From Planctomycetota bacterium (GTDB lineage Bacteria; Planctomycetota; B15-G4; JADJEK01): a stretch of DNA of 45,830 nt. Positions within the stretch are counted from its first letter, which is position 1. Every line of letters starts with the position of its first letter. The stretch spans positions 46,855 through 92,684 of the forward strand of contig JACQZJ010000123.1 in NCBI GenBank assembly GCA_016213895.1. The letters are read 5' to 3'. Position numbers and translations under genes: made by a program. A model generated the notes under the pieces. That model ran no database searches. It was not told the DNA's origin and saw only the letters and a list, made by a program, of their open reading frames with translations. Below, in pieces: positions 7,212 through 26,810 of the stretch.

Positions 7212-7263
7212 CACAGCCGGACGTCGCAGACTGTCACAGCTCGGTGTCACAGCTTGTCACAGC
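7209..7263. repeat. Four direct copies of TGTCACAGC at the fic 3' end
   Basis: TGTCACAGC occurs at 7209-7217, 7232-7240, 7245-7253 and 7255-7263. The last copy overlaps the fic stop codon; on the minus strand each copy reads GCTGTGACA and so carries a TGA. Spacings are 23, 13 and 10 bases. Confidence 0.85.
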
Positions 7264-8333
7264 GCTTTCCAGGGCCTCGTGAACGACTCGGCCATGCGGT
7301 AGTGGCGGGTTGGATCGGTCGGGCCGCTCCCCATCTCGACGAGCAAACCTTTTGCTACCAAGGCGTTGAGGTCCCTCTGCAGCGTGCGCCGGTTCGCGCC
7401 GGGGCAGAGGCCCTCGAACTCCTTGATCGTCAGCCGCCCCACTTCCATCGCCTGGCCGAGGGCGAGCGCCTGGCGATCGGAGAGCCGGTGCTCGCGCGCC
7501 AGGAGGTCCGCGCGGATCGTGCGCTCGCCCCGCGCCTTCACCTCGTCGAGCTGGTTCGCGACTCCTTCCGTGAAGTACTCGAGCCAGCCGGTCAGGTCCA
7601 TGTCCCGCTCCCGCACGCTCTCTATCGCACGGTAGAAGGCCGGGCGGTCCCGGTCGAAGTACTCGCTGATCGTGAGGAGCCGCTTGAAGTCGTAGCCGGT
7701 CCGGTAGAGGCAGCGCGTCGCGAGCAGGCGCGAGGTGCTGCCGTTGCCGTCGAGGAAGGGATGGACGTGGACGAGCAGGAATTGCGCCGCGCCGCTCGCC
7801 AGCACGGCATGCATACGGTCGGAGCCGTTGTTGAGCCAGGCGACCAGATCCAACATGAGGAGCCACACGTCTTCAGCCGGCGGAGGCGTGTAGACCACCG
7901 CTCCCGTGCCCGAGTCGACCACGTAGACCTGCACGCTCCGGTACACGCACGGGGCAGCCGCGCCGCCGCGCACGCCTTCGACCAGCCGCTTGTAGATCTC
8001 GTAGATGGACCCCTCGGAGATCGCCTTCCAGACCCCCGTGAAGCCGGCGACCAGCTCGAACGCGCGCCGGTAGTTGAGGAGTTCCCGCACGTCGTCCGGG
8101 TCGGCGTCCGGAACGGTCTCGCCGGCGAGCAACCGCTCGGATTGTTCGAGCGTGAGCTGCGAGCCCTCGATGTGCGTCGAGTGGTGCGCCTCGAGCACCA
8201 GGGCCCGCTCCCTCATGCGCCTTATCCAGTCCTCCGACAGCGGCGCCGCATTCAGGAACCTGCGCGCTCGCTCGATCCGCGTGAGCGTCGCGGTGATCGG
8301 ATTCGTGACCGTGAAACGCGGCGCGAAGCTCAT
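7257..8333 (-). CDS. fic: Fic-domain protein (class II-like) with C-terminal winged helix
   Basis: 358 residues. The N-terminal helix carries STHIEG (52-57), fitting the inhibitory motif (S/T)xxxE(G/N) that blocks the active site in cis in class II Fic enzymes. The Fic motif is H191[11 protein letters not shown]202; the usual first Arg after GNG is Ser199, while His191, Asp195 and Arg202 are kept. The C-terminal about 70 residues ([36 protein letters not shown]) form a winged-helix DNA-binding domain. Fic enzymes usually transfer AMP from ATP to hydroxyls of target proteins and many act as toxins. The ATG overlaps the TGA of a 50-codon ORF (ATGA), itself coupled to abiEii, so fic is the last gene of an abiE-type operon. 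Confidence 0.93.
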
Positions 8334-8482
8334 GCGACCTCCTCACGCGCGTCGCCTGCGCCGAGCGCGGCCGCGAGGCCGTCGTCATACACCTCGCCGA
8401 ACCGCGCCCGCGCGGCGCACCTCACCCAGTCGACGTCTGAGTCCTTGTGCACCGAGTACAACCTAACCCGCCGCGCGCTCAT
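8330..8482 (-). CDS. 50-residue protein coupled between abiEii and fic
   Basis: An ORF of 50 codons starts [20 protein letters not shown] and ends GDAREEVA. Its ATG overlaps the abiEii stop (ATGA, 8479-8482) and its own TGA overlaps the fic ATG (8330-8333), so the three frames are linked without spacers. The peptide is mixed charged/hydrophobic with a likely helical C-terminal half ([14 protein letters not shown]). It lacks the (S/T)xxxE(G/N) inhibitory motif of VbhA-like Fic antitoxins, which is already inside the Fic protein. It could be a small adaptor or regulator, or the end of a lost gene. It is too short for standard gene calling. Confidence 0.55.
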
Positions 8483-9396
8483 CGCCACGGTCCTCCCGGG
8501 TCCCAGTGGCGATCGAAGGCGAGTGCTCCGCAGGCCGCGTCCAGAGCTGGCTCGGCGAAGCGGCGGATGGCCGCGACCACATCAGAGAAACCGGTCTCGG
8601 CCACTCGAAGTACCCCCTTCCTCAGGAACGCCTGCCAGCGCGTCACGTGCAGCGGCGCGCGCGCGAAGCGGTCGCTCAGTCCCTCGGGCGGTTCGGTCGG
8701 AAGGACCGTCGCGCGCCGCGCGAAGGTGCGCCGGATCGACTCGGCGAGCAGCGATCCGTCGAACGGGAGCGAGCGCGGGAGCTGCAGGAGGTCGTAGTAG
8801 TCCTTCGCCCGGCTGTTCGCATCGCCCAGCACGACGATAGCCTCGAGCTTCTCGGCAACCGAGGTATAGGGCGTGTACGCGCGCACGCTGGCCATCGGCA
8901 TGCCGAGAAGCCCGCCGGGCACGACCTCCACCGCCGGCGGATAGACCGCGTCCCCCAGGCCGACGTCCACCTGGTAGCGCAGCCGGGTCTTTCCGAGGCA
9001 CGCATCGAACTTCGCGCGCAGGCCGAGAACTGCCGAGCCAACGCGAATCGCCTGAATCGCGATCGAACCGTCGTCGAAGGCGATCGCGTCGTCTTCGACA
9101 TCGGCGCGCAGTATGTCCGCGATGGCCTCGCGCAGCGCGTCCGCGTCCATCTCGGCGGGACCCAGCAGGTCGACGTCGCGGGTGGGCCGCGCGTCCACGC
9201 CCAGCCACCCGCGCAGCAGCAGCGCTCCCTTGAGCACGAAGCGCTCGCGATGTCGCGAACGCCCCAGCCGATGCAGCAGGCGTTCGACGGCGTACAGCTC
9301 CAGCATCTCGGCGAAGGGTCGTCGGGACTTCTGCGCCGCGTTCTTCAGGCGCGCCTGGATCGAGTGGGCCAGACCGGTCGGCCAGGGCGGGGTCAC
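8479..9396 (-). CDS. abiEii: AbiEii-family nucleotidyltransferase toxin
   Basis: 305 residues from a GTG start at 9396 that overlaps the abiEi stop (GTGA); a longer upstream frame exists but is the shadow of abiEi. It belongs to the DUF1814/AbiEii nucleotidyltransferases: FVLKGALLL (53-61) with K56-G57, the metal-binding pair D74/D76 in TRDVDLL, and the downstream block K183-LEAIVV with SRAKDYYDL (195-203). In the AbiE system AbiEii is a bacteriostatic toxin using a nucleotide, and AbiEi is the antitoxin and repressor; together they cause abortive infection against phages. Gene order and the 4-base overlap are those of known abiE pairs. Confidence 0.93.
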   Translation of the reverse strand: MTPPWPTGLAHSIQARLKNAAQKSRRPFAEMLELYAVERLLHRLGRSRHRERFVLKGALLLRGWLGVDARPTRDVDLLGPAEMDADALREAIADILRADVEDDAIAFDDGSIAIQAIRVGSAVLGLRAKFDACLGKTRLRYQVDVGLGDAVYPPAVEVVPGGLLGMPMASVRAYTPYTSVAEKLEAIVVLGDANSRAKDYYDLLQLPRSLPFDGSLLAESIRRTFARRATVLPTEPPEGLSDRFARAPLHVTRWQAFLRKGVLRVAETGFSDVVAAIRRFAEPALDAACGALAFDRHWDPGGPWR

Positions 9397-10001
9397 AGCA
9401 GCGCTTCCAGATACGGACGCACCACCCGGGCGACGCGGCACGTGCCGGCCACGCTCAGGAACTGGGCGGGCGTGAACCGCCGCTCCTCGAGCCCCGTGCG
9501 CAGGGCCTCCACCGCGACTTCGATGCCAAGCCGGTTCCTGAGGCGGAAGCAGTCGGCCACGGTCTTGGCCGCGCCGTAGACCTTGAGCCTCACACCGTCG
9601 CGCTCGTGCGTCTCGATCCCTTCGGCGTACATCGCGCCGGAGAACCAGTGCACGCGCAGCGGCGGCCACTCCAGCCTGGGCCGGCTGGTTCCCTTGGGCA
9701 GCGCGATGCTCACCGCATGCGGGACCTCCGTGGTGAGGCCGTGGAAGTGGAGCGCCGAGACGACGGCGACCACGGCCTTCGGGATCCGCGCGGCTACGGT
9801 GGCGAGGTCCGGCTCGGCGAGCGGTGGGAGATCGGCCAGGCGGTAGACGCCGCGGCTCACGGCATCGAGGATCCCGCCGTCCCGCAGGGCGTAGAGGTCA
9901 CGCGGGTGGATTCCGGCGCCCAGGACCTGGCCGGTTCGGAGCACACCTCCGGCCCGGCGGAACATCTCCAGCACCTTCGCCTCTCGTTTCATCCGGGTCA
10001 T
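9393..10001 (-). CDS. abiEi: AbiEi-family antitoxin/transcriptional repressor
   Basis: 202 residues from ATG 10001 (MTRMKREAK); an upstream in-frame ATG at 10049 would lie beyond the promoter boxes and is not chosen. The N-terminal about 60 residues form a winged helix (VLEMFRRAGGVLRTGQVLG, HPRDLYALRDGGIL, SRGVYRL) typical of AbiEi. The body has AVVAVVSALHFHGLT and TVADCFRLRNRLG, hallmarks of the family. AbiEi neutralises AbiEii and represses the operon by binding inverted repeats in the promoter. Here the -10 box lies so close to the ATG that the transcript may be leaderless. Confidence 0.93.
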   Translation of the reverse strand: MTRMKREAKVLEMFRRAGGVLRTGQVLGAGIHPRDLYALRDGGILDAVSRGVYRLADLPPLAEPDLATVAARIPKAVVAVVSALHFHGLTTEVPHAVSIALPKGTSRPRLEWPPLRVHWFSGAMYAEGIETHERDGVRLKVYGAAKTVADCFRLRNRLGIEVAVEALRTGLEERRFTPAQFLSVAGTCRVARVVRPYLEALL

Positions 10002-10007
10002 GGATAA

Positions 10008-10036
10008 TAAGTACGTTACCTGCGAAGCTCGGTCAA
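10008..10036 (-). promoter_or_regulatory. Promoter of the abiE-fic operon, probably leaderless
   Basis: On the minus strand TTGACC (10031-10036) and TACTTA (10008-10013) are 17 bases apart. The start codon at 10001-9999 begins six bases after the -10 box, so transcription should start at or next to the A of ATG. No Shine-Dalgarno fits between them. Confidence 0.65.
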
Positions 10037-10572
10037 GGTTTCTGTCCAAATGTGACCTTCACGACCCAGAAGGCCGGCGCCGCGGGAAGAGGTGCCGGCC
10101 GACGATCTGGAGGAAGACGACGCCGCCTCCCTCGCGCCCGGGCCCCGCCAAACCGAACTCCCGGCGCGGCGCACGTTCGTGGTTCATTCCCGGTTCATTC
10201 TTCCCTTCCTCTTTCCAGGAGCGCGGGTTATGGCGCATCAATCCCCGGTTCATTCCCTCCGCTCCTGGCTGAGGCCCGGCCCGGTAGGTTCCGAACGATG
10301 TAAAGCCCTCTGCTTACGGACGAGCGGCGCCGCAAGCGCGGGGAACCCGTCGTGGCGACCGAGCGGGAGCCAAAGAAGAACGTGGCAGCCGCGCCCCGCT
10401 CGAAGCGGCCGCTGCTGGGGAAGGACGAGATTGGCAAGCGAGCCAGCGGAGTGGTGAGCCGTGGCACGCTCCTGAAGAACGAGTTGCGGACGCCGGGAGC
10501 GAAGAAGGCCTTCGAGCTCACGACCGTGCCGGCCGCATCCAAGAAGAGGCCCTTGGCCGAAGCGGAGATGCC
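10037..10572. other. Intergenic segment with direct GGTTCATTC repeats
   Basis: This stretch between abiEi and hsdR holds no convincing conserved gene. GGTTCATTC occurs at 10181-10189, 10192-10200 (11-base period) and 10247-10255; on the minus strand each copy reads GAATGAACC and carries a TGA. AATGTGACCTT at 10049-10059 also occurs at 3704-3714 upstream of the DUF4143 ATPase. A possible small plus-strand ORF is listed separately. Confidence 0.5.
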
Positions 10573-10576
10573 CTAG
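10352..10576 (+). CDS. Possible small basic protein, convergent with hsdR
   Basis: A 74-codon frame from GTG 10352 (open back to a TAA at 10301) encodes a Lys/Arg-rich peptide including KRPLLGKDEIGKRASGVVSR and ends in AEAEMP. The composition is more protein-like than the other frames here. Its stop overlaps the end of hsdR on the other strand by four bases. No family is recognised and no good ribosome-binding site is present, so it may be a chance ORF or a remnant. Confidence 0.25.
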   Translation: MATEREPKKNVAAAPRSKRPLLGKDEIGKRASGVVSRGTLLKNELRTPGAKKAFELTTVPAASKKRPLAEAEMP

Positions 10577-13500
10577 TTCGTCAGGCCTCCCGCGCCCGAA
10601 GTCTCGTAGGTGAGTCCGAAGACCGTATCCGTCAGCCAGCGGCGGAACGACTCGTTGTCCATGAACTGCTTGAACAGCTCGGTGTCGTCCTTCAGGACTG
10701 CCGTCATCACGCGGGCGAGCGCCTTGTCGTGCTCGATGCGGGCGTTCTGCTTGTCGGAGTTCCTCTTGGCATTCTGGTAGGCGGTGTCGGCCGCGACGCG
10801 GCTCGGAATCTCCTCGGTGATCAGCTTGTGCACGCGATCGGCGTCGGTCCAAGGGATGTTGCCGAACTGGTCGTTGAAGGTCTTGAGGATGTTCGAGAGG
10901 CGATCGAGCTCGGGCTCGGGTCGATGGCCGCCGCCTGCTGTCGGCACCGCCTCGATCTCTGCATCCGCGTCCGGGAGCTGGATCTTCACCGCCGCCTGCT
11001 TCTCGACGCGGTAGCTGTCCATGTCGATCGCTTCGAGGATGCCCTTGGAAAGGTCCTCTTCGACGGGCGCCGGCAGCTTGGGCACGAGGAACGCCAGGAA
11101 GATCGAGAGCTTCTCCCAGGCCGCGTTGGTGTACGGCAGGATCGAGGACAGGAAGCCGTAGGCCCGCAGGAAGGCCTTCGCCTTGCCCTTGAAGTCGACC
11201 TGGCCATCCTCGTCGAGCTGCTCGCGATAGGCGGCGACGGAAACATCGAGGATCGGGTCGAGTCGGTCGCGATCCGCGCCGCCGAGGTAGAGCGAAACCA
11301 GCTCTTCGATCTGGGCGCCCGCGTAGACCTGACAGCCGTCAAGGGCGGCCTTGAGATCGTGCAGCCTGTCCGGGTCGGTCTCTTCGGCGAGGATGGTGGT
11401 GCGGTAGTAGTCGCTGAACGCCTGCTGGATCGTGTCGGCGTCGTTCATGAAGTCGAGCACGAACACGTCGTGCTTCTGCGGGTGCGCGCGGTTCAGGCGC
11501 GAGAGCGTCTGCACCGCCTTGATGCCGGACAGGATCTTGTCCACGTACATGGTGTGCAGCAGCGGCTCGTCGTAGCCGGTCTGGAACTTGTCGGCGCAGA
11601 TGAGGAAGCGGTACGGGTCTTCCTGCACCTTGTCGGCGATCTGGCTCGACGGGAAGCCGTTGAGGGAGGCCTCGGTCACCTTGACCCCGCCGTACTCGTG
11701 TTCGCCCGAGAAGGCGACGATGGCGCGGTGGGGGCTCTTGCGCTCCACCAGGTAGTCCCGGATCGCATGGTGGTACTGGATGGCGCGCTCGATGCCGCTC
11801 GTCACCACCATCGCGCGCGCCTGCCCGCCGACCTTGCGCAGCGCCAGCACCTGCTCGTGGAAGTGGTCGACCATGATCTCGGCCTTGAGGCGGATGGCGT
11901 GCTCGTGGCTCTCGACGTAGCGCCGCAGCTTCTTGCTCGCCCGCTTGGTATCGAACTCCGGGTCGCCCTCCACCGTCTTGACCAGCTTGTAGTAGCTCTC
12001 GACCGGCGTGTAGTGCCTGAGCACGTCCAGGATGAATCCCTCCTGGATCGCCTGCTTCATCGTGTAGCTGTGGAAGGGATGGTGCTTGACCGTGCCGTCC
12101 GCCTGCGGCTCCGGCGCGCCGAAGATCTCGAGGGTCTTGTTCTTGGGCGTCGCGGTGAAGGCGAAGTAGCTCGCGTTGGGCAAGAGCTTCTTGGCCTCCA
12201 TCAGCCGGTTGATCTTGTCCTCGACGGTCTCGTCGTCTTCCTCGGCCCCGGCCGCCGAGAGCGCCATCGACAGCGCTGCGGAGGTGCGCCCGCCCTGGCT
12301 CGAGTGCGCCTCGTCGATGATGATGGCGAAGCGCCGCCCCCTGTGCTCGCTCCCGATCTCGTCGAGGATGAACGGGAACTTCTGCACCGTGGAGATGATG
12401 ATCTTCTTGCCCTCGGCGATGAACTCGCGCAGGTCGCCGGAGCGATCGGCATGCCCCACGGTCGCGCTCACTTGAGCGAACTGCTTGATCGTGCGCCGGA
12501 TCTGCTGGTCGAGGATGCGCCGGTCGGTGACGACGATGATCGAGTCGAAGACGACCGCACCGCTCTTCACCAGCCCGATCAGTTGATGGGCCAGCCAGGC
12601 GATCGAGTTCGACTTGCCGCTGCCCGCCGAGTGCTGGATCAGGTAGCGCCGCCCGGCGCCATGTCGAGCGGCATCGGTCAGGAGCTTGCGCACCACGTCG
12701 AGCTGGTGGAAGCGCGGCCAGATCTGCGCCGCCTTCTTCCTCCCTGTCTTCTCGTCCCGGGCTTCGACGACTTGCGCGTAGTTCTCGAGGATGTCGGTCA
12801 GGCCCTCGCGGGTGAGGATGCGCTTCCAGAGGTAGTCGGTCTTGAGACCGTTCGGGTTGGGCGGGTTGCCCGCGCCGTCGTTCCAGCCCAGGTTGAAGGG
12901 CAGGAACCACGACCCCTTCGCCTTGAGGTGCGTGCAGAACCGCACCTCGTGGTCATCCAAGGCGAGGTGGACCACGCAGCGGCCGAACTCGAAGAGCCTC
13001 TCGCGTGGGTCGCGGTCGCGCCGGTACTGCTGGACGGCGTCGTCCACGGTCTGCTTGGTGAGGCTGTTCTTGAGTTCGAAGGTGGCCACGGGCAAGCCGT
13101 TGATGAAGAGGGCCAAATCGAGCGCGAGCTGCGTCTCGTCGCGGCTGTAGCGGAGCTGGCGCGTCACGCTGAAGCGGTTGGCGGCATGGCGTTCCTCGGC
13201 CTTCGGGTTCCCCGAGGACGGCGTGCCGTAGAAGAGGTCGAGATGGTGCGGTCCGTGCTTGATCCCGTGGCGCAGGACGTCGATGGTTCCGCGCTTGGAG
13301 ATCTCGCCCTGCAGGCGCGCGAGGAACTTGCGCCGGGCCGGGCCGTCGTGTCCCAGGTCGAGCGCTTCGCACGCCTCGGGTTGGGTTTCTCGCAGGAAGA
13401 CCGTGAGCTGAACGAGGTCGACGCAGTACTCGCGGTCGTAGTCCGCCGGCGCGCCGCAGGTCCACCCTGCGCCGTAGACCGCCGGCCGCTCGGTGACCTC

Positions 13501-13602
13501 CCCCGCCGCGCCAGCGCCCGAGCCACCCGGATCGCAGGGCGAGCCGGTCAGCGCCGTGCAGATCAGGCGCTCGAGGCCGCGTTCGCTGGTGTCGGTAGTC
13601 AT
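10573..13602 (-). CDS. hsdR: Type I restriction enzyme, R (translocase/nuclease) subunit
   Basis: 1009 residues, normal for HsdR. The N-terminal nuclease domain has the PD-(D/E)xK core D162 ... FELK (E176, K178). The SF2 helicase motor follows: Walker A HSAGSGKS (324-331), DEAH at 430-433, and TATPKNKT (about 488) as motif III. A C-terminal helical region would bind the HsdM/HsdS core. The enzyme uses ATP to pull DNA past the bound methyltransferase and cuts unmethylated DNA far from the site. It is the last gene of the hsdM-gmrSD-hsdS-AlbA_2-hsdR series, separated from the preceding gene by about 300 bases that carry three 11-base-period repeats. It may therefore have its own promoter. Confidence 0.97.
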   Translation of the reverse strand: MTTDTSERGLERLICTALTGSPCDPGGSGAGAAGEVTERPAVYGAGWTCGAPADYDREYCVDLVQLTVFLRETQPEACEALDLGHDGPARRKFLARLQGEISKRGTIDVLRHGIKHGPHHLDLFYGTPSSGNPKAEERHAANRFSVTRQLRYSRDETQLALDLALFINGLPVATFELKNSLTKQTVDDAVQQYRRDRDPRERLFEFGRCVVHLALDDHEVRFCTHLKAKGSWFLPFNLGWNDGAGNPPNPNGLKTDYLWKRILTREGLTDILENYAQVVEARDEKTGRKKAAQIWPRFHQLDVVRKLLTDAARHGAGRRYLIQHSAGSGKSNSIAWLAHQLIGLVKSGAVVFDSIIVVTDRRILDQQIRRTIKQFAQVSATVGHADRSGDLREFIAEGKKIIISTVQKFPFILDEIGSEHRGRRFAIIIDEAHSSQGGRTSAALSMALSAAGAEEDDETVEDKINRLMEAKKLLPNASYFAFTATPKNKTLEIFGAPEPQADGTVKHHPFHSYTMKQAIQEGFILDVLRHYTPVESYYKLVKTVEGDPEFDTKRASKKLRRYVESHEHAIRLKAEIMVDHFHEQVLALRKVGGQARAMVVTSGIERAIQYHHAIRDYLVERKSPHRAIVAFSGEHEYGGVKVTEASLNGFPSSQIADKVQEDPYRFLICADKFQTGYDEPLLHTMYVDKILSGIKAVQTLSRLNRAHPQKHDVFVLDFMNDADTIQQAFSDYYRTTILAEETDPDRLHDLKAALDGCQVYAGAQIEELVSLYLGGADRDRLDPILDVSVAAYREQLDEDGQVDFKGKAKAFLRAYGFLSSILPYTNAAWEKLSIFLAFLVPKLPAPVEEDLSKGILEAIDMDSYRVEKQAAVKIQLPDADAEIEAVPTAGGGHRPEPELDRLSNILKTFNDQFGNIPWTDADRVHKLITEEIPSRVAADTAYQNAKRNSDKQNARIEHDKALARVMTAVLKDDTELFKQFMDNESFRRWLTDTVFGLTYETSGAGGLTN

Positions 13603-13614
13603 CGCCTGCTTCCC

Positions 13615-13645
13615 ATCAACTACCCGTCAACTACACATCAACTGC
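13615..13645. repeat. Three tandem 11-bp repeats just upstream of hsdR
   Basis: ATCAACTAC (13615), GTCAACTAC (13626) and ATCAACTGC (13637) recur with an exact 11-base period, one helical turn, ending about 12 bases before the hsdR ATG. On the minus strand each unit contains GTTGA. They could bind a repressor along one DNA face, or be another case of the TGA-bearing repeats seen near fic. Confidence 0.7.
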
Positions 13646-13911
13646 AACGCCAGCTCCGAGAATGTGACGTACGCTCGCGGCGCGTCGGCCACCGAATCCG
13701 CTACCGCGAGGACACGCGTACCGGCGGCCATGCTCCGCCGCCACGACGCCGCCCGGACCTTCTGAAGCCGTCGCGATCGACTCAGACCTTGTCCAAGACG
13801 ATCGCTCGCACCGCCGAACGCAGACAACATAACTGCTTGAAGAATTAGCGGTTCTGCTCCACGGCCAAGGTCCAGGCTTGTCTCGAATGCCGGATTCCTT
13901 GTCTCAATCAT
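13627..13911 (-). CDS. Possible small ORF between the AlbA_2 gene and hsdR
   Basis: A 94-codon frame starts with ATG 13911, overlapping the last codons and stop of the AlbA_2 gene, and ends inside the 11-bp repeats. It contains LILQAVMLSAFGGASDRLGQ and an Arg-rich middle; no family is recognised. The overlap would fit the operon's pattern, but codon quality is poor and local GC is lower than in the neighbours. It may be non-coding. The rest of the 13603-13903 interval shows only the repeats. Confidence 0.25.
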   Translation of the reverse strand: MIETRNPAFETSLDLGRGAEPLILQAVMLSAFGGASDRLGQGLSRSRRLQKVRAASWRRSMAAGTRVLAVADSVADAPRAYVTFSELALQLMCS

Positions 13912-15601
13912 GGTGGCCTCCGGCGTCGCCTTCGCCGGTCTCTTCTCGGGCGGCCCAGCGCGGCTGCGACCGACTTCCCAGGTTGACGATCTTGCCGCCT
14001 CGACGAAGCTCTTGGAGGAGGTTCCGTACCTTCCGGCGCTTCTGCCCCTCCGTCAGGCGATCCGACAGCTTCGGAACGAGAGCCTGGTCGACATCCTTTC
14101 GTTCTACCGGCCCGTGCGTGCGCACCAGGGCCAGGATCAGGTCCAGGTAGTACTGCCTGTCGAAGCCCCGCTCCCGGATGTGCCGGCCGGCTTCGCCGGT
14201 CGCCCTGGCGATCGCCGCGGCCACGATCAGGTTCGGATACCGCCCCTCGACGAGACCGGCGGCCTTCAGGCGGCGGTGGTCCTCCCGAGCGATCGAGAGT
14301 CCCTTCTGCACCCGGTCGAGCAGCATGACCTGCCCGAGATCGAGATCGGTCCGTGCCATCAGGAGCTGCGTGTAGCGCTCGTCGAGGATCCGGCCCGTGA
14401 GGGTCACGGCCACGTGTCCCGGCTTGGTCAGGTCGTAGTCCGGCAGCGGGAACGAGCGCCGCCGCTGCGTCTCGAACATGCGCTTGATGCCGCCCCCCTG
14501 GGTCTCGATCAGGTTCAGCTCGACCATCGCAGCGGCCAGGAACGGGTTGCGGTAGATCGCCAGTGGAGCGTCCTGCCGGATCACGGTCTCGACGTCTCCG
14601 GGAAGGAAGTCGCCGGCGTTGGTCACCAGCACGCGGTCCGGGAACTCGACCACGACAACGCGCCCCTGCCGGCGATAGTCCTGGTGCGCGATGCTGTTGT
14701 GCAGCGCCTCGCGGATCACCCACGGGTCGTACTGCGTGATCTCCTGCGGGAAGAGCGTGCCGCGTGGCAGCACACGCACCATCAGGTTGCGCACGTGCTT
14801 CAGCAGGCGATCGCCGGCGACCAGGAACGGTGGATCGATGTGCTCGTGGTCAAGCTCCCGGTTCCCCGCGTCCTTCAGAATCCACGAAACCCGGGCCACC
14901 GCCGGCGAAAGTAGGGTCGTCGATTCGCCGCGCCCGAGCAGCAGGATCGCGGCGTTCGTGACCGCGCCCGCCTTCAAGACCCTGGCCTTGTTGAGGAAGG
15001 TGCGATCGTCCCACCCGGCGACCGCGTCTGCCTGAGTCGGATGCTTGACCGTGAACTCCTGGCGGGCCTTGGCCACGGCCTCGGGATCCAGGCTGTCCAG
15101 CGTCGCCCCTTCGCACAACTCCGCCGACCAGTCGGACCCGCGAGTCCAGAGAGCGCGCGTCTTCTCGGGGTGGTTCCGCAGCTCGGTCTTGCTGGTCCCC
15201 ACGCGCACGTAGGCCGTGCCGTAGAAGCTCACCGGCTGGTCCTTGGCCGGACCTACCTCGAACACCACGATGCGACCCTCCGGATGCTCCACCACGCGGA
15301 CGTTGAACCCCGGGTTGGGCTCAAGCCCCGCCCCGAGCCACGGCAGCAGGTCCTGGTTGCCTTTGGCCTTCACGCGGTAGGGATCGAATCGCGTGCCGGC
15401 GACGTCGTGGGTCTCGTCGTCGATCCCGAACACCAGGTAGCCCCGCGGCTGGTTCGCCAGGCAGGCCGAGTTCGCGAGGGCGGACAGGTACTCGCCGAGC
15501 AACTGCGCCTCGCAGCCGCTGCGCTTGAACTCGAACCACTCCGTCTCCGACGGCAGCGCCCGCAGCCGATCGATGAGCGCGACCTCCTCGCTGCTGCTCA
15601 C
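13904..15601 (-). CDS. AlbA_2 (Schlafen-like) ATP-binding protein embedded in the type I R-M operon
   Basis: 565 residues starting at GTG 15601, which overlaps the hsdS stop (GTGA). The N-terminal AlbA_2/Schlafen domain begins TEWFEFKRS and continues with LGEYLSALANSACL and GYLVFGIDD. The middle to C-terminal part is the RecG-like GHKL module: WVIREALHNSIAHQDY (N-box like), EFPDRVLVTNAGDFLPGDV and ETQGGGIKRMFE. A helical C-terminus follows with TGEAGRHIRERGFDRQYYLD. Such proteins are often found inside type I R-M operons (the rlo 'R-linked ORFs'); some are thought to bind nucleic acid or regulate. Position and overlap suggest the protein works with, or is co-regulated with, the restriction enzyme. 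Confidence 0.93.
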   Translation of the reverse strand: MSSSEEVALIDRLRALPSETEWFEFKRSGCEAQLLGEYLSALANSACLANQPRGYLVFGIDDETHDVAGTRFDPYRVKAKGNQDLLPWLGAGLEPNPGFNVRVVEHPEGRIVVFEVGPAKDQPVSFYGTAYVRVGTSKTELRNHPEKTRALWTRGSDWSAELCEGATLDSLDPEAVAKARQEFTVKHPTQADAVAGWDDRTFLNKARVLKAGAVTNAAILLLGRGESTTLLSPAVARVSWILKDAGNRELDHEHIDPPFLVAGDRLLKHVRNLMVRVLPRGTLFPQEITQYDPWVIREALHNSIAHQDYRRQGRVVVVEFPDRVLVTNAGDFLPGDVETVIRQDAPLAIYRNPFLAAAMVELNLIETQGGGIKRMFETQRRRSFPLPDYDLTKPGHVAVTLTGRILDERYTQLLMARTDLDLGQVMLLDRVQKGLSIAREDHRRLKAAGLVEGRYPNLIVAAAIARATGEAGRHIRERGFDRQYYLDLILALVRTHGPVERKDVDQALVPKLSDRLTEGQKRRKVRNLLQELRRGGKIVNLGSRSQPRWAAREETGEGDAGGHHD

Positions 15602-17046
15602 GCCTCCGCCTCCTCGGGGACCAGCTCCATGTCCTCCGCCGCGGCCTCCTCGCCGTCTGGCGAGGCCTCTGCCTCTTCGACCGGCTTAGGCTCCTCGGCC
15701 TCATCCGGCAGCCGCGCCGCCGCCTCGCGCACGTCGAGCTTGCCGGTGACCACGTCCGCGATCAGGCGGGTGCGGTATTCGCGAAGCAACCCGATCTCGC
15801 GACGCGCACCCTCCACTGCACACTCGACCTGTCCGGCCAGCGCCGCCGTCGACCCCACAATCCGCGCCTGCTCCTGACCATCGGGCACGCCGAGTCGGAA
15901 CGACCGGATCTGCTGCGGACTGACGTGGGGAACGCTGATCCCCGTGAAGATCGGAGCAAGGTAGTCCGAGAAGCACCTTCCCGCCAGGAGCAACATCAAG
16001 TAATCAGCCCGCAGGCCATCATGAGGCCGGATTCGCGCAACCCGCTGCAGAAGCAGCGCCGGCAGATCCGCCTCCTTCACACACGCAACCCTGATTCCGC
16101 TCCCGATAATCGGTCGATCCATGCCCAGGACGATATCGCCACGGAGCAGCTCGAAGGCCGAGTACTGCCACCGTTCGGAACTCGGCCAGCGGACGACGTC
16201 GTTCCACCGGATTGTGCCGGTGGAGACGTTGACGCCTCGCAGAAGCCGGACACCATCTTCATCTTGAACGAAACCCTCGCTCTTGAATGGAAAGCCCGTC
16301 GCCAACTGGATCAGGCCACCAAGACACGAAACCTCCCAATGCTCCGGCACGTCCCCCAGCCACTCGACGCCGGAGGCCTTGAGGCGCACGTTCGGGTCGA
16401 GGCCGCGGGTGACGGCGCGGTGGATGATGGCCTGCTTCTGCTCCTCCAGCAGCTTGATCAGCTTCTGCTTGGCGCGGATGTAGCGCTGGATCCGCCGGTC
16501 CACGTGGTCGAGGAAGCGAACGATGGCGGCTTGTTCGGGGAGGGGTGGGAGGCACGAATAGATCATCTTGAAGTGCTCGGGCCGCAGGCTCCACATGTCC
16601 GAGGTGATCCCGTAGGACCATCGCTCGGCCTCTTTGGCGAAGGCCGGGGTCCGTAGCAGGTAGTGCAGGTAGCGGGGAGCTGCAGCTTCGCGCGGACGCT
16701 GCACGACGTAGGCCGGGCTGACGATTCCCTCGTACTCGGAAACCCCGACCGCACCCTGCCATGCGCGCATCTTGTTGTAGGCGATGTCACCGCGGCGGAC
16801 GAGCTTGTAGGGCGACTTGTCCAGCTTGGAGCTGTCCTTCTTCGAGCTGTCTTCTAGCAACGCCTGTTGTCGAATCACACCCTTGGTGATCGTCACCGAA
16901 AGCATGTCCGCGTCTGGGCGATCGCGCTCCTTGACCTCATCGAAGATCGCACGATTCGGCAGGACACCCCAATGCTCCGGCACCTCCCCCAGCCACGGCA
17001 CGCCGGAGTCCTTCATCGCGGGATAGGGCTTGAGGTCTTCGATCAT
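15598..17046 (-). CDS. hsdS: Type I restriction-modification specificity subunit
   Basis: 482 residues. Two target-recognition domains are each preceded by the same conserved segment, SGVPWLGEVPEHW (about 14-26) and SGVEWLGDVPEHW (about 226-238). Each is followed by a helical spacer: FLDHVDRRIQRYIRAKQKLI with LLEEQKQAIIHRAV after the first, and IGLLREYRTRLIADVVTGKL after the second. This is the classic two-half HsdS architecture that reads a bipartite DNA site. The C-terminus carries a long Glu/Ala-rich acidic tail (about residues 445-482) that is unusual. The ATG overlaps the stop of the GmrSD-type gene (ATGA). Confidence 0.96.
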   Translation of the reverse strand: MIEDLKPYPAMKDSGVPWLGEVPEHWGVLPNRAIFDEVKERDRPDADMLSVTITKGVIRQQALLEDSSKKDSSKLDKSPYKLVRRGDIAYNKMRAWQGAVGVSEYEGIVSPAYVVQRPREAAAPRYLHYLLRTPAFAKEAERWSYGITSDMWSLRPEHFKMIYSCLPPLPEQAAIVRFLDHVDRRIQRYIRAKQKLIKLLEEQKQAIIHRAVTRGLDPNVRLKASGVEWLGDVPEHWEVSCLGGLIQLATGFPFKSEGFVQDEDGVRLLRGVNVSTGTIRWNDVVRWPSSERWQYSAFELLRGDIVLGMDRPIIGSGIRVACVKEADLPALLLQRVARIRPHDGLRADYLMLLLAGRCFSDYLAPIFTGISVPHVSPQQIRSFRLGVPDGQEQARIVGSTAALAGQVECAVEGARREIGLLREYRTRLIADVVTGKLDVREAAARLPDEAEEPKPVEEAEASPDGEEAAAEDMELVPEEAEA

Positions 17047-19148
17047 GCCTCCGCGTCCGCGTTGCCCATCTGCTTCTCGAAGGCCTGGCGCACGAGGCCC
17101 ATGACGTAGGGCAGTTCGTCGGGCTTGCTCATGGCCACCTCCACGTCGCCGTTACCCCAGCGGCCGCGATTGGTCACGTCCGTGGCCAGGCCCCTGGGAT
17201 CGTGCAGCTCCTGGAAGTGCAGGTTCAGCGTGAGACGCAGGCGGCTCTTCTGCGGCACCACGTCCACGAAGTTGGTCTCGGCCTTGTAGGCGACGTAGAG
17301 CTTGAGGATGTCTTCGGTGACGCAGGGGTCGAGCGCCAGGACCTCCTTCCGAAACAACTCGAAGAGCGGTCGCATGGGACTGCTCTCGGCCAGGTAGATG
17401 TGGTCTTCGATGGTGTAGCCGGCGGGCCGGTCGGCCTTCCGCCGGTATGCCTCGATCACCTCGGCCGGCAGCGCGGGTGGCGCCCAGACGCTTGCGGCCT
17501 GCTCGGCAAGCCGCTTCGCGCGCGTCTGGATGGCGGCCTCGTCCCAGGTGTCGAGTGCACCGAGCCCCTCGTTGAGGCGCAGCGGACTCTGCTTGAAGCC
17601 GCCCGACATGTCGCGCTTCTCGGCGAAGGGCCGGTCGCTGTACTCGGCGTTGTAGCCGGTGAGCGTCAGGTTGCCGAGGGTGTGCAGCCACCTCTCCTGC
17701 ACACGCTGCCACTCTTGACCGAGCGCCTCGCGCCACTCCCTGGAGAGACTCTCGTTCTGCGGCAGGATGTGCTCGATGGTGTACTCGTCCACCGGCACGC
17801 GCTCCTTGCGGCCGTGGTTTTCGAGGCGCCGCAGCCAGTAGCTCCGGCGCGGGAAGTTGTAGAGGTCGCGCGCGCTCAGCTCGCGCTTGAACTCCTCGTC
17901 GCTCGGGAAGCGCCGGTAGGACGGCAGGGTCAGCAGATGCGCCTGGATGCTCTCGAAGTAGCGGCTCTTGTCGAGCGCGCGACCGAATGTGGCGAAGGTC
18001 TTGTTGAGCGAGTTGGTGGGGATGGCGCACACCGCCCTGCGGAACACGTAGGCCTCAGCCAGCCGCACGGCCTTGACGAAGTCGTCCTTCAGAAGGCGGC
18101 CCTGCACGTAGTCCCGGTACAGCTCCAGAAGGAAGGGGAACGCCACGTCCACCTTCATCTCGCGCAGGTCCCGGAAAGCCGCCGCCAGATCCCTGTCGGA
18201 CTCCGTGTCGAGCGCCATCGCACAGTAGTGGCCGGCGTAGGCGTGGATGTCGGCGACCAGAGAGTCGACGCCAGCCGCCACCACCTCGGGGGAGCGCGCG
18301 TGGATCTTGAAGGCCTCGTAGACGGCACGGACGTTGGGGATCTCTCCAGTCTTGAGCGTCAAGTAGTGGCGCATGAAGCCGTCGAAGTGCGTGCCGTAGG
18401 CCTCCTGGCCGAAATCGACCTCCATCGGCCGCCAGTGCTCCTCGTAGAGCCGCGTCTGCTGGCCGGGCTCCAGGCCCATCAGGATGAAGTTCCGAATCAG
18501 GTCGGCCTGGCTCAGCTCGCGGCCGGTGGAGTTCATGCTCTCGAAGATGAGCTGTGGGTTGTCCTGGTCGCGGCTGAGCGCGATGTCCACGATGACGAGC
18601 TTCGCGAGCCCCTGGCACACCGGCCTGAGATCCTGCCCGAGAGCGCGAACGTGCTCCTGGAAGTAGGCGAAGTTCTGGTTGATGCGCAGCGACGGCTCGG
18701 ATGGTTCCGGCTTCTGCTGCACCAAGGCGAGCAGGCTCTGCTTGTCCGTCTGCGTGAGCAGCAGCTTGAAGCCGCGCTCGCCGTCCTCCAGCGGGTTCAG
18801 GAGGTAGTAGCTGCGCAGCTTCTTGGCCGAGAAGCCGTCGACGGGCTCCCCCTCCCCCACGTGCCGCGCGAGCGCCTCGAGGATGAGCATCACGGTCGTC
18901 AGGCGCTGCTGGCCGTCGATGACGAGCAGCTTCGACTGGCTGGAGACCTGGTAGAGCCCCTTCTCGATGTAGACGATGGAGCCCACGAAGTGCGCCGCGA
19001 TGGCGTCGCTCTTGCCCGTGCGCAGGATGTCTTCCCAGAGCTGGCGGCACTCGCGCTCGGTCCAACTGTAGGTGCGCTGGTAGATCGGGATGGCGAACTG
19101 CGGCGACTTCTTGAGGAACTCGAGGAACTTGGCTTCGTTGGCCTTCAT
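17043..19148 (-). CDS. GmrSD-type restriction endonuclease (DUF262 + DUF1524 + DUF5655)
   Basis: 701 residues. The N-terminal DUF262 (ParB/Srx-like) domain has IPIYQRTYSW (20-29) and VIDGQQRLTT with DGQQR at 78-82, the nucleotide-binding/NTPase signature. DUF1524, an HNH-type nuclease, lies at about 455-520: TIEHILPQ (His about 460) followed by LGNLTLTGYNAEYSDRPFAEKR. The C-terminal about 110 residues (LYVAYKAETNFVDVVPQKSR, GRWGNGDVEV) match the DUF5655-type tail. Relatives such as GmrSD and BrxU are type IV enzymes cutting modified (glucosylated hydroxymethyl) phage DNA. Here the gene lies between hsdM and hsdS with 4-base overlaps on both sides, so one transcript may carry a type I and a type IV activity. 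Confidence 0.95.
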   Translation of the reverse strand: MKANEAKFLEFLKKSPQFAIPIYQRTYSWTERECRQLWEDILRTGKSDAIAAHFVGSIVYIEKGLYQVSSQSKLLVIDGQQRLTTVMLILEALARHVGEGEPVDGFSAKKLRSYYLLNPLEDGERGFKLLLTQTDKQSLLALVQQKPEPSEPSLRINQNFAYFQEHVRALGQDLRPVCQGLAKLVIVDIALSRDQDNPQLIFESMNSTGRELSQADLIRNFILMGLEPGQQTRLYEEHWRPMEVDFGQEAYGTHFDGFMRHYLTLKTGEIPNVRAVYEAFKIHARSPEVVAAGVDSLVADIHAYAGHYCAMALDTESDRDLAAAFRDLREMKVDVAFPFLLELYRDYVQGRLLKDDFVKAVRLAEAYVFRRAVCAIPTNSLNKTFATFGRALDKSRYFESIQAHLLTLPSYRRFPSDEEFKRELSARDLYNFPRRSYWLRRLENHGRKERVPVDEYTIEHILPQNESLSREWREALGQEWQRVQERWLHTLGNLTLTGYNAEYSDRPFAEKRDMSGGFKQSPLRLNEGLGALDTWDEAAIQTRAKRLAEQAASVWAPPALPAEVIEAYRRKADRPAGYTIEDHIYLAESSPMRPLFELFRKEVLALDPCVTEDILKLYVAYKAETNFVDVVPQKSRLRLTLNLHFQELHDPRGLATDVTNRGRWGNGDVEVAMSKPDELPYVMGLVRQAFEKQMGNADAEA

Positions 19149-21127
19149 GACGCGCCCCCTCCGATGATCTCGCCGAGCAGTCCCTCGGTCTCCTTCTCCA
19201 GCGCCAGGATGTCGGCGCGGATCGCCTCCAGAGTGCGCAGCGGCTGCGGCTTGTAGAAGTAGCGGGTGAAGCTGACCTCGTAGCCGATCTTGACGCCGTC
19301 CGGGACGTACCAGGCGTCGGCGGCGTGGGGCAGCACCTCGCGGCGCAAGAAGGCCTCGATGCCGCCCTCTTCCAACAGGGGCACCTGCTCGGTGTCCCGA
19401 AGCTCGGGGTCGGGCTCGTACTCGACCACGGCCGGCTTGCCCGCGAGGGTGACCGCGAAGAGTCCGCGGAGCGGGTCAGCGGCCGTCCCTCTCTTGTGGA
19501 CCCTCGTAATCACCGGCGATGCGTCGTCCGCCCGCTCGGCCGTCTCCTTGAGCGCCTTGATCTCCTTGGCCGCGTACGCGCGATCGGGGTCGATGCCCTT
19601 CAGGCGCAGCGGCCGCTCGACGGTCACCTTCCAGTAGCCGAACGCGGCGTTCGGGAAGATCTTCGACCGCTCGGACTCCTGGAAGGCGAGGAAGGTCTCG
19701 CAGATCCGCTCGATGTCCTCGTCCGACAGTTCGCAGTTCTTCTTGCCGAGGTTTTTGCGCAGGGGCCTGTACCACTGCGTGGCGTCGATGAGCTGCACGC
19801 GGCCCGCACGGTGCTGAGGCTTTCGGTTGCCCAGCACCCAGATGTAGGTCGCGTTGCCGGTGTTGTAGAACATGTTGAGCGGCAACGCGACGATGGCCTC
19901 GAGCCAGTCATTCTCGATGATCCAGCGCCGAATGTTGCTCTCGCCTTGGCCGGCGTCCCCGGTGAAAAGCGAGCTGCCGTTGTGCACTTCGGCGATGCGG
20001 CTGCCGAGCTTCGTGCCCGACTTCATCTTCGAGAGCATGTTGGCCAGGAAGAGCATCTGCCCGTCGCTCGAGCGCGTCACCAGCGAGTACTCGGAGTCGG
20101 CCGCGTGTTCGATGACGAAGCGCGGGTCCTTGATCTCGCCCTTGCCGCCCATGCGCTCGAGGTCGCTCTTCCAGCTCTTGCCGTACGGCGGATTGCTGAG
20201 CATGAAGTCGAACTCGCGCGAGGGAAACGCGTCGTTGGCGAGCGTCGAGTGCTCCGGCCCGCCGACGATGTTGTCCGCTGCGTCGCCCTCGCCCTTCAGC
20301 AGGAGGTCCGCCTTGCAGATGGCGTAGGTCTCGGCGTTGATCTCCTGGCCGTAGAGGTGAGTCGCGACCTGCTTGCCGTGCGCCGCGGCGACTTCCCGCA
20401 GGGTCCCCTCGGCGACGGTCAGCATGCCGCCCGTCCCGCAGGCGCCGTCGTACAGGAGGTACGTGCCCGAGTCGATCTCGTCCGCCACGGGCAGGAAGAT
20501 CAGCTTCGCCATGACCTTCACGGCGTCGCGCGGCGTCCAGTGCTCGCCCGCCTCCTCGTTGTTCTCCTCGTTGAAACGCCGGACGAGCTCCTCGAACACG
20601 GTGCCCATGCCGTGGTTGTCGAGACCGGGGTGCCTCAGCGAGCCGTCGCCGTTCAAGACCGGATTCGGGCTGAGGTTGATGTCCGGCGAGAGCAGCTTGC
20701 CGATCAGCGTGCCCAGCGCGTCGGCCTTGGAGAGCCGCGGGATCTGATTGCGGAACTCGAACTTCTCCAGGATGTCCTGAACGTTGGGTGAGAACCCGTC
20801 CAGATAGGCCTCGAAGTCAGCCTTGAGCTGCTGCTGGCTGGCGCGCGCCTTGAGATCGCGCAGCGTGAACTCGGAGGTGTTGTAGAACGCCTGCACCGCC
20901 GCCCCCCGCAGGGCCTGGTCCTGATGGACGATCCCAGCCTTGTCGAGCGAGGCCTTCATTTCGAGAACGGCCCGCTTGCTCGACTCCAGCACCGCGTCCA
21001 GGCGCCGCAGCACGGTCATCGGCAGGATGACGTCCCGGTACTTGCCGCGCACGTACAGGTCCCGCAGGACATCGTCCGCGATGCCCCAGATGAAGTTCGC
21101 GACCCAGTTCAGTTGCCCCTGTTCCAT
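19145..21127 (-). CDS. hsdM: Type I restriction-modification DNA methyltransferase subunit
   Basis: 660 residues, with an N-terminal helical domain (LNWVANFIWGIADDVLRD). The adenine-N6 methyltransferase core has SAM motif I DGACGTGG (227-234) and catalytic motif IV NPPY (312-315). The C-terminal part, with LEAIRADILALEKETEGLLG, is a coiled helix that probably contacts HsdS. It protects host sites and forms the M2S core onto which HsdR docks. ATG 21127 is preceded by GCGGAG and lies 22 bases beyond the end of the attC-like site. First gene of the hsd operon proper, though it may be read through from the AlbA_2 promoter at about 23 kb. Confidence 0.97.
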   Translation of the reverse strand: MEQGQLNWVANFIWGIADDVLRDLYVRGKYRDVILPMTVLRRLDAVLESSKRAVLEMKASLDKAGIVHQDQALRGAAVQAFYNTSEFTLRDLKARASQQQLKADFEAYLDGFSPNVQDILEKFEFRNQIPRLSKADALGTLIGKLLSPDINLSPNPVLNGDGSLRHPGLDNHGMGTVFEELVRRFNEENNEEAGEHWTPRDAVKVMAKLIFLPVADEIDSGTYLLYDGACGTGGMLTVAEGTLREVAAAHGKQVATHLYGQEINAETYAICKADLLLKGEGDAADNIVGGPEHSTLANDAFPSREFDFMLSNPPYGKSWKSDLERMGGKGEIKDPRFVIEHAADSEYSLVTRSSDGQMLFLANMLSKMKSGTKLGSRIAEVHNGSSLFTGDAGQGESNIRRWIIENDWLEAIVALPLNMFYNTGNATYIWVLGNRKPQHRAGRVQLIDATQWYRPLRKNLGKKNCELSDEDIERICETFLAFQESERSKIFPNAAFGYWKVTVERPLRLKGIDPDRAYAAKEIKALKETAERADDASPVITRVHKRGTAADPLRGLFAVTLAGKPAVVEYEPDPELRDTEQVPLLEEGGIEAFLRREVLPHAADAWYVPDGVKIGYEVSFTRYFYKPQPLRTLEAIRADILALEKETEGLLGEIIGGGAS

Positions 21128-25181: not shown

Positions 25182-26462
25182 CTACTGGAAGGTGAGCGCG
25201 AGCGGCACGGTCGTGCCGAGCGGCCGGAAGTTCGCCGCGAACAGGGCGGCCTGCACCTGCACCGTTCCGCTCCAGCCCGGGTTGACTGCGGGCAGGTTGA
25301 GGCTCCCGGCCGAGTCGAGGTAGAGCGGACCGGCCACCAGCAGCGAAGCCGGATCGAGCGCGCAGAAGAACGGCACGTCGTCCGCCCACACCGCGTACTC
25401 GGGGGAGTAGGGCAGCGCCGCGGCGAAGAGGAAGGCGACGCCGCTCGGCGGTCCTTGATCCAGGTCGAGGCTGAACGGGCCGGCGGGAATGGGACTGGCC
25501 GGCGTGCTGGAGAGCGCCAGGCGGGCGGGCCGCACCACGTTGACCTCGGTCTGGGAGACCCAGTCGCTGTACACCGCGGCGATCGCGCCGCCCTGCTCCG
25601 GCTGGAAGGCGCCGAAGACCGCGCCGCCCTGTCCCGGGTCGAGGACGGCGAGGCAGGTGACGCCGCCCGGAGAGGCGGCGCTCGCCACGCTCTCGCGCAG
25701 CTGCCCGTACGCGTCGTACGCCTGGAGCGTGCCCGCGACCGCGTCCGCGACCAGCAGGTCGCCCTGGTTGTCGATGACCAGGCCGTACACGTTCCCCAGG
25801 CCGCTCGCGCGCACCTGCGCGTCCGCCTCGGTGAGGTGCGACGGGCCGACGGCCGAAGCGAGCTGCTCCGGCGTCCAGCAGATGACCCGCCCCAGGCCGG
25901 GCGCGTCGGACGCGCCGTAGCAGAGCCGGCCCGCGGCATCGAGCGCCAGCGGGCCGGACGCGCCCGCGACCACGGCGATCAAGTCGGTCGTTTGGCCGGC
26001 CACGTCGAGCAGCACGATCTCGGTCGAGGTCCAGAAGGCGTCGGCGTGCGACACGTACGCCAGGCCGGGCGCGGCGAAGACGCAGTCGTAGTTGAAGAGG
26101 ATGCTGGCGCTGGCTTGCGGCGTGCTGCCGTCCAGCGGCACCTGCCAGACGTTCTGGTTCGAGGACTCGCCGAAAAGCAAGAAGGCGCCCGCGGGGTCCA
26201 CCTCCACGAACGAGCCGTACACGAAGCCGGGCGGCGTGAAGAGCACGCGCACCACGGCGCCCGAGGAGGGGTCCATCTCGACGACCGACGTGCCGTCGAA
26301 CAGGGCCAGGTTGCCGTTCGGCAGGGCGTCGAGGCCGCCGGCGAACGCGCCGGGGGCCAGCGGCAGCGCGTGGTTCTGGAAGCCGCGGGAGGGGGAAAGC
26401 TGGGCCGAAACGCCGGGGGAGAAGATGGCGGCGAGCGCCGCCGCGACGAGGAGGGAACGCAT
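25182..26462 (-). CDS. Secreted beta-propeller-like protein under cobalamin riboswitch control
   Basis: 426 residues. A Sec signal peptide is plain (MRSLLVAAALAAIFSPGVSA, cleavage before QLSP). The body has recurring beta-propeller strands: GGLDALPNGNLALFDGTSV, GLVIDNQGDLLVADAV, PLALDAAGRLCYG and TCLAVLDPGQGGAVFG, as in NHL/YncE/SMP-30-like propellers. The last about 120 residues form a beta-sandwich-like tail (PLYLDSAGSLNLP, VQAALFAANF) of a type common at the C-termini of planctomycete secreted proteins. The gene lies about 140 bases downstream of a cobalamin riboswitch on the same strand, with its Shine-Dalgarno GGAGC inside a hairpin. By analogy with BtuG (a secreted propeller that binds B12 in Bacteroidota), a B12-capture role is proposed; this is inference. 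Confidence 0.9.
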   Translation of the reverse strand: MRSLLVAAALAAIFSPGVSAQLSPSRGFQNHALPLAPGAFAGGLDALPNGNLALFDGTSVVEMDPSSGAVVRVLFTPPGFVYGSFVEVDPAGAFLLFGESSNQNVWQVPLDGSTPQASASILFNYDCVFAAPGLAYVSHADAFWTSTEIVLLDVAGQTTDLIAVVAGASGPLALDAAGRLCYGASDAPGLGRVICWTPEQLASAVGPSHLTEADAQVRASGLGNVYGLVIDNQGDLLVADAVAGTLQAYDAYGQLRESVASAASPGGVTCLAVLDPGQGGAVFGAFQPEQGGAIAAVYSDWVSQTEVNVVRPARLALSSTPASPIPAGPFSLDLDQGPPSGVAFLFAAALPYSPEYAVWADDVPFFCALDPASLLVAGPLYLDSAGSLNLPAVNPGWSGTVQVQAALFAANFRPLGTTVPLALTFQ

Positions 26463-26469
26463 CGGGAAA

Positions 26470-26558
26470 GCTCCGATGGAGCGGAGTCGATCCGGCGGGC
26501 GCTGCTCCGCGTGCGCCTCGACCGGGACCCGTGTTCACGACGCGAAAGGGGACTCCGC
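26470..26558 (-). promoter_or_regulatory. Possible Shine-Dalgarno sequester and competing stem in the riboswitch leader
   Basis: On the minus strand GCTCC-ATC-GGAGC (26482-26470) forms a small hairpin that hides GGAGC, the likely Shine-Dalgarno 7-8 bases before the ATG. Upstream GCGGAGTC (26558-26551) can pair with GACTCCGC (26488-26481), which overlaps the first arm, so the two stems compete. This fits translational control by the riboswitch. Confidence 0.45.
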
Positions 26559-26599
26559 AACCGGACGCCTTGCGCGAGCGTGATCGCAGGTCGGCTCCC

Positions 26600-26780
26600 G
26601 GGGCAGGTCTCCTGACTCGCGGGTCCTCGCAGGATCCGACGCCTTCCCAGGAAGCCGAGGCTTCCCAGTGGCATGATCGCGGATCCGGCTCGCCGCTCAC
26701 AGTGGCGCGACCGTGTGGGACTTTCACCCACTTCCCTCGTGGCCCCCGCGCCACGAGCGCGGAAGACCCCAGGACATGAA
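26600..26780 (-). ncRNA. Cobalamin (B12) riboswitch
   Basis: Read on the minus strand, the conserved core is unmistakable: GAGGGAAGTGGGTGAAAGTC, then CCCACACGGTCGCGCCACTG followed by TGAG. Next come GCCACTGGGAAG, TGGGAAGGCG and the 3' B12-box GAGTCAGGAGACCTGCC (26618-26602). Order and spacing match the Cobalamin riboswitch family (RF00174). A promoter lies directly upstream and the secreted propeller gene is the only gene downstream on this strand before the convergent sigma gene, so it is the regulated target. Cobalamin binding would normally lower expression. Confidence 0.93.
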
Positions 26781-26782
26781 GC

Positions 26783-26810
26783 AAGGTAACGCGGCGAGAG
26801 GGCGTGTCAA
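26783..26810 (-). promoter_or_regulatory. Promoter of the cobalamin riboswitch transcript
   Basis: On the minus strand a perfect TTGACA (26805-26810) and TACCTT (26783-26788) are 16 bases apart, placing the transcript start close to the 5' edge of the riboswitch. Confidence 0.65.

Follow-up and report, generated by a model that had tools for sequence, protein, structure and literature searches.

A riboswitch-controlled secreted beta-propeller of a Planctomycetota bacterium as a candidate corrinoid-capture protein

A cobalamin riboswitch in the genome of a Planctomycetota bacterium precedes a gene for a secreted beta-propeller, which is likely to be a corrinoid-capture protein that is made when cobalamin is scarce and that feeds the BtuF/BtuCD transport system. 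The gene lies in a 45,830-nucleotide stretch of DNA, referred to here as the window. Its linkage to B12 riboswitches and transport genes is conserved among relatives, the genome carries BtuFCD-type genes, and a marker of corrin-ring synthesis is missing from the class genomes examined. In the mechanism that we propose, low intracellular cobalamin would cause the riboswitch to leave the Shine-Dalgarno site free, and the propeller would be made and exported by the Sec pathway to the periplasm or the cell surface. Corrinoids bound and concentrated there by the propeller would then be taken into the cytoplasm by BtuF and BtuCD, whose genes lie elsewhere in the genome. With plentiful cobalamin, the aptamer would be bound and the ribosome site closed. 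A surface position is not assured because the protein is not a lipoprotein. Propellers that capture B12 have been described as exclusive to Bacteroidetes, and the family of the window protein, termed family A, appears to extend that strategy to a second phylum. Its unannotated proteins can now be named and tested.

The riboswitch and its leader

The sequence-only reading of this region had described a consensus promoter, a cobalamin riboswitch, and a leader with a Shine-Dalgarno hairpin and a competing stem, all on the minus strand ahead of the propeller gene. The riboswitch is borne out by the Rfam covariance search, which gives a full-length match to RF00174 at 26786-26585 on the minus strand (model positions 1-189 of 189, 103 bits, E 8e-25; gathering score 31.5 bits). 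RF00174 is the single Rfam family matched within the window, and this is the only cobalamin riboswitch detected in the 5.5 Mb genome. A leader of 122 nt separates the end of the riboswitch from the start of the gene. The description as a consensus promoter is too strong: the -35-like hexamer TTGACA (26805-26810, minus strand) is a perfect match and is conserved in the sister genome G001, but the -10-like hexamer, read by eye from the sequence, is only a weak TACCTT (26783-26788, minus strand) at a spacer of 16 nt, with TACGTT in its place in G001, and a promoter scan reported no full promoter. Between the two genomes, the leader and the aptamer are far better conserved than the DNA 5' of the -35 hexamer.

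The hairpin sequestering the Shine-Dalgarno sequence, GCTCC-ATC-GGAGC (26470-26482, minus strand), is formed in the minimum-energy fold, as had been proposed. Its GGAG (26474-26471) lies 8 nt ahead of the ATG, and in G001 the stem is kept with an altered loop. The competing stem is less certain. A candidate anti-sequestor arm, GCGGAGTC (26551-26558, minus strand), is the perfect 8-nt complement of GACTCCGC (26481-26488, minus strand), which overlaps the 5' arm of the hairpin, and the pairing is nearly conserved in G001, but such an 8-nt complement is present by chance in 17% of shuffled leaders. It is plausible that the upstream arm could open the Shine-Dalgarno hairpin.

Elsewhere on the minus strand, the window holds a defence island (7257-21127). 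It encodes the type I restriction proteins HsdR (10573-13602), HsdS (15598-17046) and HsdM (19145-21127), a DUF262/GmrSD-like Orf5 protein (17043-19148), an AbiEi/AbiEii pair (9393-10049 and 8479-9396) and a Fic protein (7257-8333).

The secreted propeller

The gene occupies 25182-26462 on the minus strand (ATG at 26462, stop at 25182) and encodes 426 residues. A Sec signal peptide, read from the translation, is predicted at residues 1-20 (26403-26462); its sequence is MRSLLVAAALAAIFSPGVSA, with Q as the next residue (VSA-Q), and both a lipobox cysteine and a cysteine at the cleavage site are absent. Residues 38-314 (25521-26351) form a propeller region with six repeats detectable by hhalign, most of which recognise at least one other, the best pair being repeats 3 and 5 (probability 96.4, E 1e-9). 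The beta-rich C-terminal domain, residues 315-426 (25185-25520), matches none of the propeller repeats and is also matched alone in another open reading frame of the same genome.

The Pfam and NCBIfam scan of the protein returned zero models above cut-off. Against the PDB, a profile of 11 relatives matched NHL and Pizza beta-propellers (E 3e-10), a profile of 46 relatives matched propellers of the WD40 type among others (E values as low as 5e-30), and the solved structures matched by family A are overwhelmingly beta-propellers. The window protein is thus predicted, with support from these profiles, to be a six-repeat beta-propeller followed by a C-terminal beta domain, in keeping with the secreted protein of propeller-like repeats described at the outset. 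The assignment of the fold rests on profiles because structure prediction lacked alignment depth; AlphaFold2, run from a two-sequence alignment only (the window protein and L097), gave a pLDDT of 32.

The window protein shows weak, sub-threshold Pfam matches to the SGL (15.7 bits against a cut-off of 26.3) and LpqB propeller models as well as weak profile matches to diisopropyl-fluorophosphatase, a six-bladed enzyme of the SGL type. S169-G170 is strictly conserved, and E99, N124, D126, D153 and D175 are highly conserved. These features would suit an SGL/lactonase-type or NHL-type enzyme acting outside the cytoplasm on corrinoids or on a ligand tied to them. However, no curated cut-off is passed, no metal-site pattern was established from the conserved acidic residues listed, and the known riboswitch-linked proteins, the BtuG propeller and the BtuH jelly roll, are binders. 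We consider an enzyme unlikely and retain corrinoid capture as the preferred function.

Conservation of the pair and its partners

The same pairing of riboswitch and propeller gene was sought in related genomes and found. The class set comprises 14 genomes in three families, f1 (to which the own genome, G000, belongs), f2 and f3. In G001, G002 (twice), G005, G007, G009, G011 and the distant G042, the propeller gene comes immediately after the riboswitch; in G003 it is second, behind a family C gene. In a blind test, the protein profile alone was run over 392 Planctomycetota genomes and detected family A in 50, 41 of them absent from the building of the profile. RF00174 scores above gathering just upstream and on the same strand in 34 of these 41 additional genomes. 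In two others, cobalamin-clan matches below threshold lie at the expected place (E 3e-5 and 0.0085), three have no riboswitch there and carry the propeller gene as the last of a BtuC-BtuD-BtuF operon, and in two the gene adjoins a BtuH-related (family C) gene at a contig edge. As these cases add up to 41, each new family member sits in a cobalamin context, and this conserved context strongly supports the proposed part of the protein in cobalamin handling.

Where measured, the riboswitch always lies close to the family A gene and on the same strand, with gaps of 44-351 nt to the nearest gene; across all pairs measured, the median gap is about 137 nt. Related genomes share ancestry, and the counts therefore show that the pair is conserved, not that it arose repeatedly. 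Most of the genomes are fragmented and apparently metagenome-assembled, and claims of absence hinge on their completeness. Paralogues of family A without a riboswitch occur at G009:C3 and as the second copy in G160. The neighbouring BtuB and BtuF genes that might be expected were recovered in part: the order riboswitch-propeller-BtuF is present in the relatives G005 and G007, but no BtuB is found in the own genome. A BtuH homologue follows riboswitch and propeller in G302 and G371, the G302 copy matching the BtuH domain with E 3e-20. In G382, two cobalamin riboswitches lie divergent and back to back (L183:6019-6394); two tandem propeller genes follow one of them, and a BtuH-related jelly-roll gene follows the other.

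Related propellers occupy the same position beyond family A. The family B propeller of f2 is homologous to family A over its full length (probability 98.9, E 4e-17) and is the first gene behind a cobalamin riboswitch in all six f2 genomes (6/6). Unlike family A, it carries DxNxDGD-type insertions, and a family C gene follows in the same direction in 5/6. The YVTN/YncE propellers of other Planctomycetota (alignment A5) likewise stand first after a cobalamin riboswitch; they match family A over 354 columns at about 14% identity (probability 96.8, E 3e-10; reversed control, probability 0.5 and E 0.11) and are of the YVTN type in sequence, whereas family A is of the NHL/WD type. G014 has the order riboswitch-propeller-BtuF-BtuC-BtuD with a related YVTN propeller, and elsewhere in the phylum some cobalamin riboswitches precede canonical BtuB and BtuFCD genes.

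Other kinds of protein are also found behind cobalamin riboswitches. Two further lipoprotein families (L067, L073, L085; L090, L094) come first after them and weakly resemble YVTN propellers by profile, and the two members scanned with Pfam gave no match. In G003 (L047:9647-11098, minus strand), the gene behind a riboswitch encodes a BtuF-type binding protein that has a further domain at its N-terminus; this domain weakly matches DUF4430 (E 0.0035, below cut-off), a transcobalamin-like domain. The proteins encoded behind the two riboswitches of G023 (L080:914-1101 and L081) resemble each other; they have about 236 residues and a PEP-CTERM-like end and are neither propellers nor known B12 proteins.

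Profile comparison relates the partner family C to BtuH, a B12-binding domain of Bacteroides. Member L186 matches BtuGH (E 3e-20) and BtuH2 (E 2e-12), member L078 matches the same two (E 3e-14 and 3e-11) and has PKD domains as in BtuH2, and the profile of the whole family has BtuGH as its sole PDB match (E 0.0014). Assignment of family C to DUF4465 (BtuJ) was rejected, since no DUF4465 model matched and BtuH was matched instead. One family C protein (L062:12021-13010) matches the Leptospira lipoprotein family LIC_13355 of NCBIfam with E 7e-13, below cut-off, which suggests a relative in spirochaetes that may likewise handle B12. Beside the propeller gene of G235 is a gene for a large lipoprotein of at least 1218 residues (L177:4347-8000). 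It matches PKD-type domains, family C and both YVTN and WD40 propellers, an arrangement similar to a propeller fused to BtuH.

The BtuH-related jelly roll is co-operonic with the propeller in several lineages and could be the binder there, and the B12 uptake operons of Bacteroides do have a non-binding member, BtuL (PMC12751083). By that example, the propeller itself would not bind and would serve as a structural component or adaptor in a B12 uptake assembly of the outer membrane or of vesicles. In the genus of the window, however, no other gene accompanies the propeller under the riboswitch and the search for family C found none, and we regard a non-binding adaptor as distinctly unlikely. That the riboswitch is a chance or residual element whose original gene was lost, leaving a propeller unrelated to B12, might fit a single riboswitch in the genome that is not at BtuFCD, but it is contradicted by the blind test, and with the pair kept across relatives and the cobalamin context persisting in 50 carrier genomes to about 20-30% protein identity, it is hardly credible.

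Corrinoid uptake and comparison with BtuG

Corrinoid capture by the propeller agrees with the B12 physiology of the class. The CbiC step is required in both routes of corrin synthesis, and CbiC was found in 0 of the 14 class genomes; class members therefore probably depend on imported corrinoids. All 14 encode B12-binding domains, which are matched 29 times in the own genome, and a FecCD-type (BtuC-type) permease. A separate contig of the own genome (G000:C170) carries its BtuF-BtuC-BtuD-type genes, with no riboswitch detected there.

A search for the TonB plug and receptor barrel found neither in the four f1 genomes, the own included (84-95% complete). Without a TonB-dependent receptor there is no BtuB in f1, and the crossing of the outer membrane becomes a question in this family: how does a vitamin of 1.3 kDa enter B12-dependent bacteria that have no TonB receptor? 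As no other gene under riboswitch control was found in the own genome, the propeller would be the best candidate for the outer part of uptake, and in two f1 genera it is accompanied by a BtuH-related jelly roll. We tentatively propose, as a possible if doubtful arrangement, that f1 acquires B12 at the outer membrane without a TonB-dependent receptor, the secreted propeller replacing BtuB as the outer capture step and feeding BtuFCD. The plug and receptor barrel are present in f3 and in most f2 genomes. As a general replacement for BtuB the propeller was rejected, since outside the class 34 of the 36 propeller-bearing genomes have TonB receptors (the exceptions are G264 and G350). Against corrinoid capture itself we count the low-confidence structural model, the lack of a btuB partner, the riboswitch-less paralogues and the shared ancestry of the genomes.

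BtuG2 of B. thetaiotaomicron (PDB 3DSM), a propeller of seven blades, binds B12 and is a partner of BtuB (PMC10404256), and no BtuG homologues were found outside Bacteroidetes in the 2018 eLife paper on BtuG (PMC6143338). The claim that such a protein is undescribed in this lineage agrees with that paper and with our literature search, which found no paper joining BtuG and Planctomycetes and none pairing a cobalamin riboswitch with an NHL repeat; subscription papers and preprints lay mostly outside its scope, and novelty is provisional. The DUF4465 binders, which extend to the PVC group (PMC13398666), are jelly rolls of a separate family. BtuH (PMC8941943) and the H domain of BtuGH (PDB 7BIZ, 8BLW) are homologous to family C, which shares operons with family A, and this homology belongs to family C of the relatives and not to the window gene.

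The earlier description of the protein as BtuG-like holds for its secreted propeller and riboswitch class and fails on sequence, lipidation and btuB. No BtuG or DUF5074 model of Pfam passed cut-off, and the propellers recovered by the PDB profile searches were of the NHL, Pizza and WD40 kinds, with no BtuG chain among them. The YncE-type propeller of BtuG has seven blades, whereas the window protein has six detectable repeats and an extra C-terminal domain; BtuG is a surface lipoprotein paired with BtuB, in contrast to the window protein, which has no lipobox, and the own genome, which has no BtuB. The window protein is not classed as BtuG because sequence match, lipidation and btuB linkage were all tested and found lacking. 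Both are exported beta-propellers under a cobalamin riboswitch, and both are linked to Btu transport genes, family A in relatives of the window genome. The best explanation is that the window protein works like BtuG, by analogy and not by membership.
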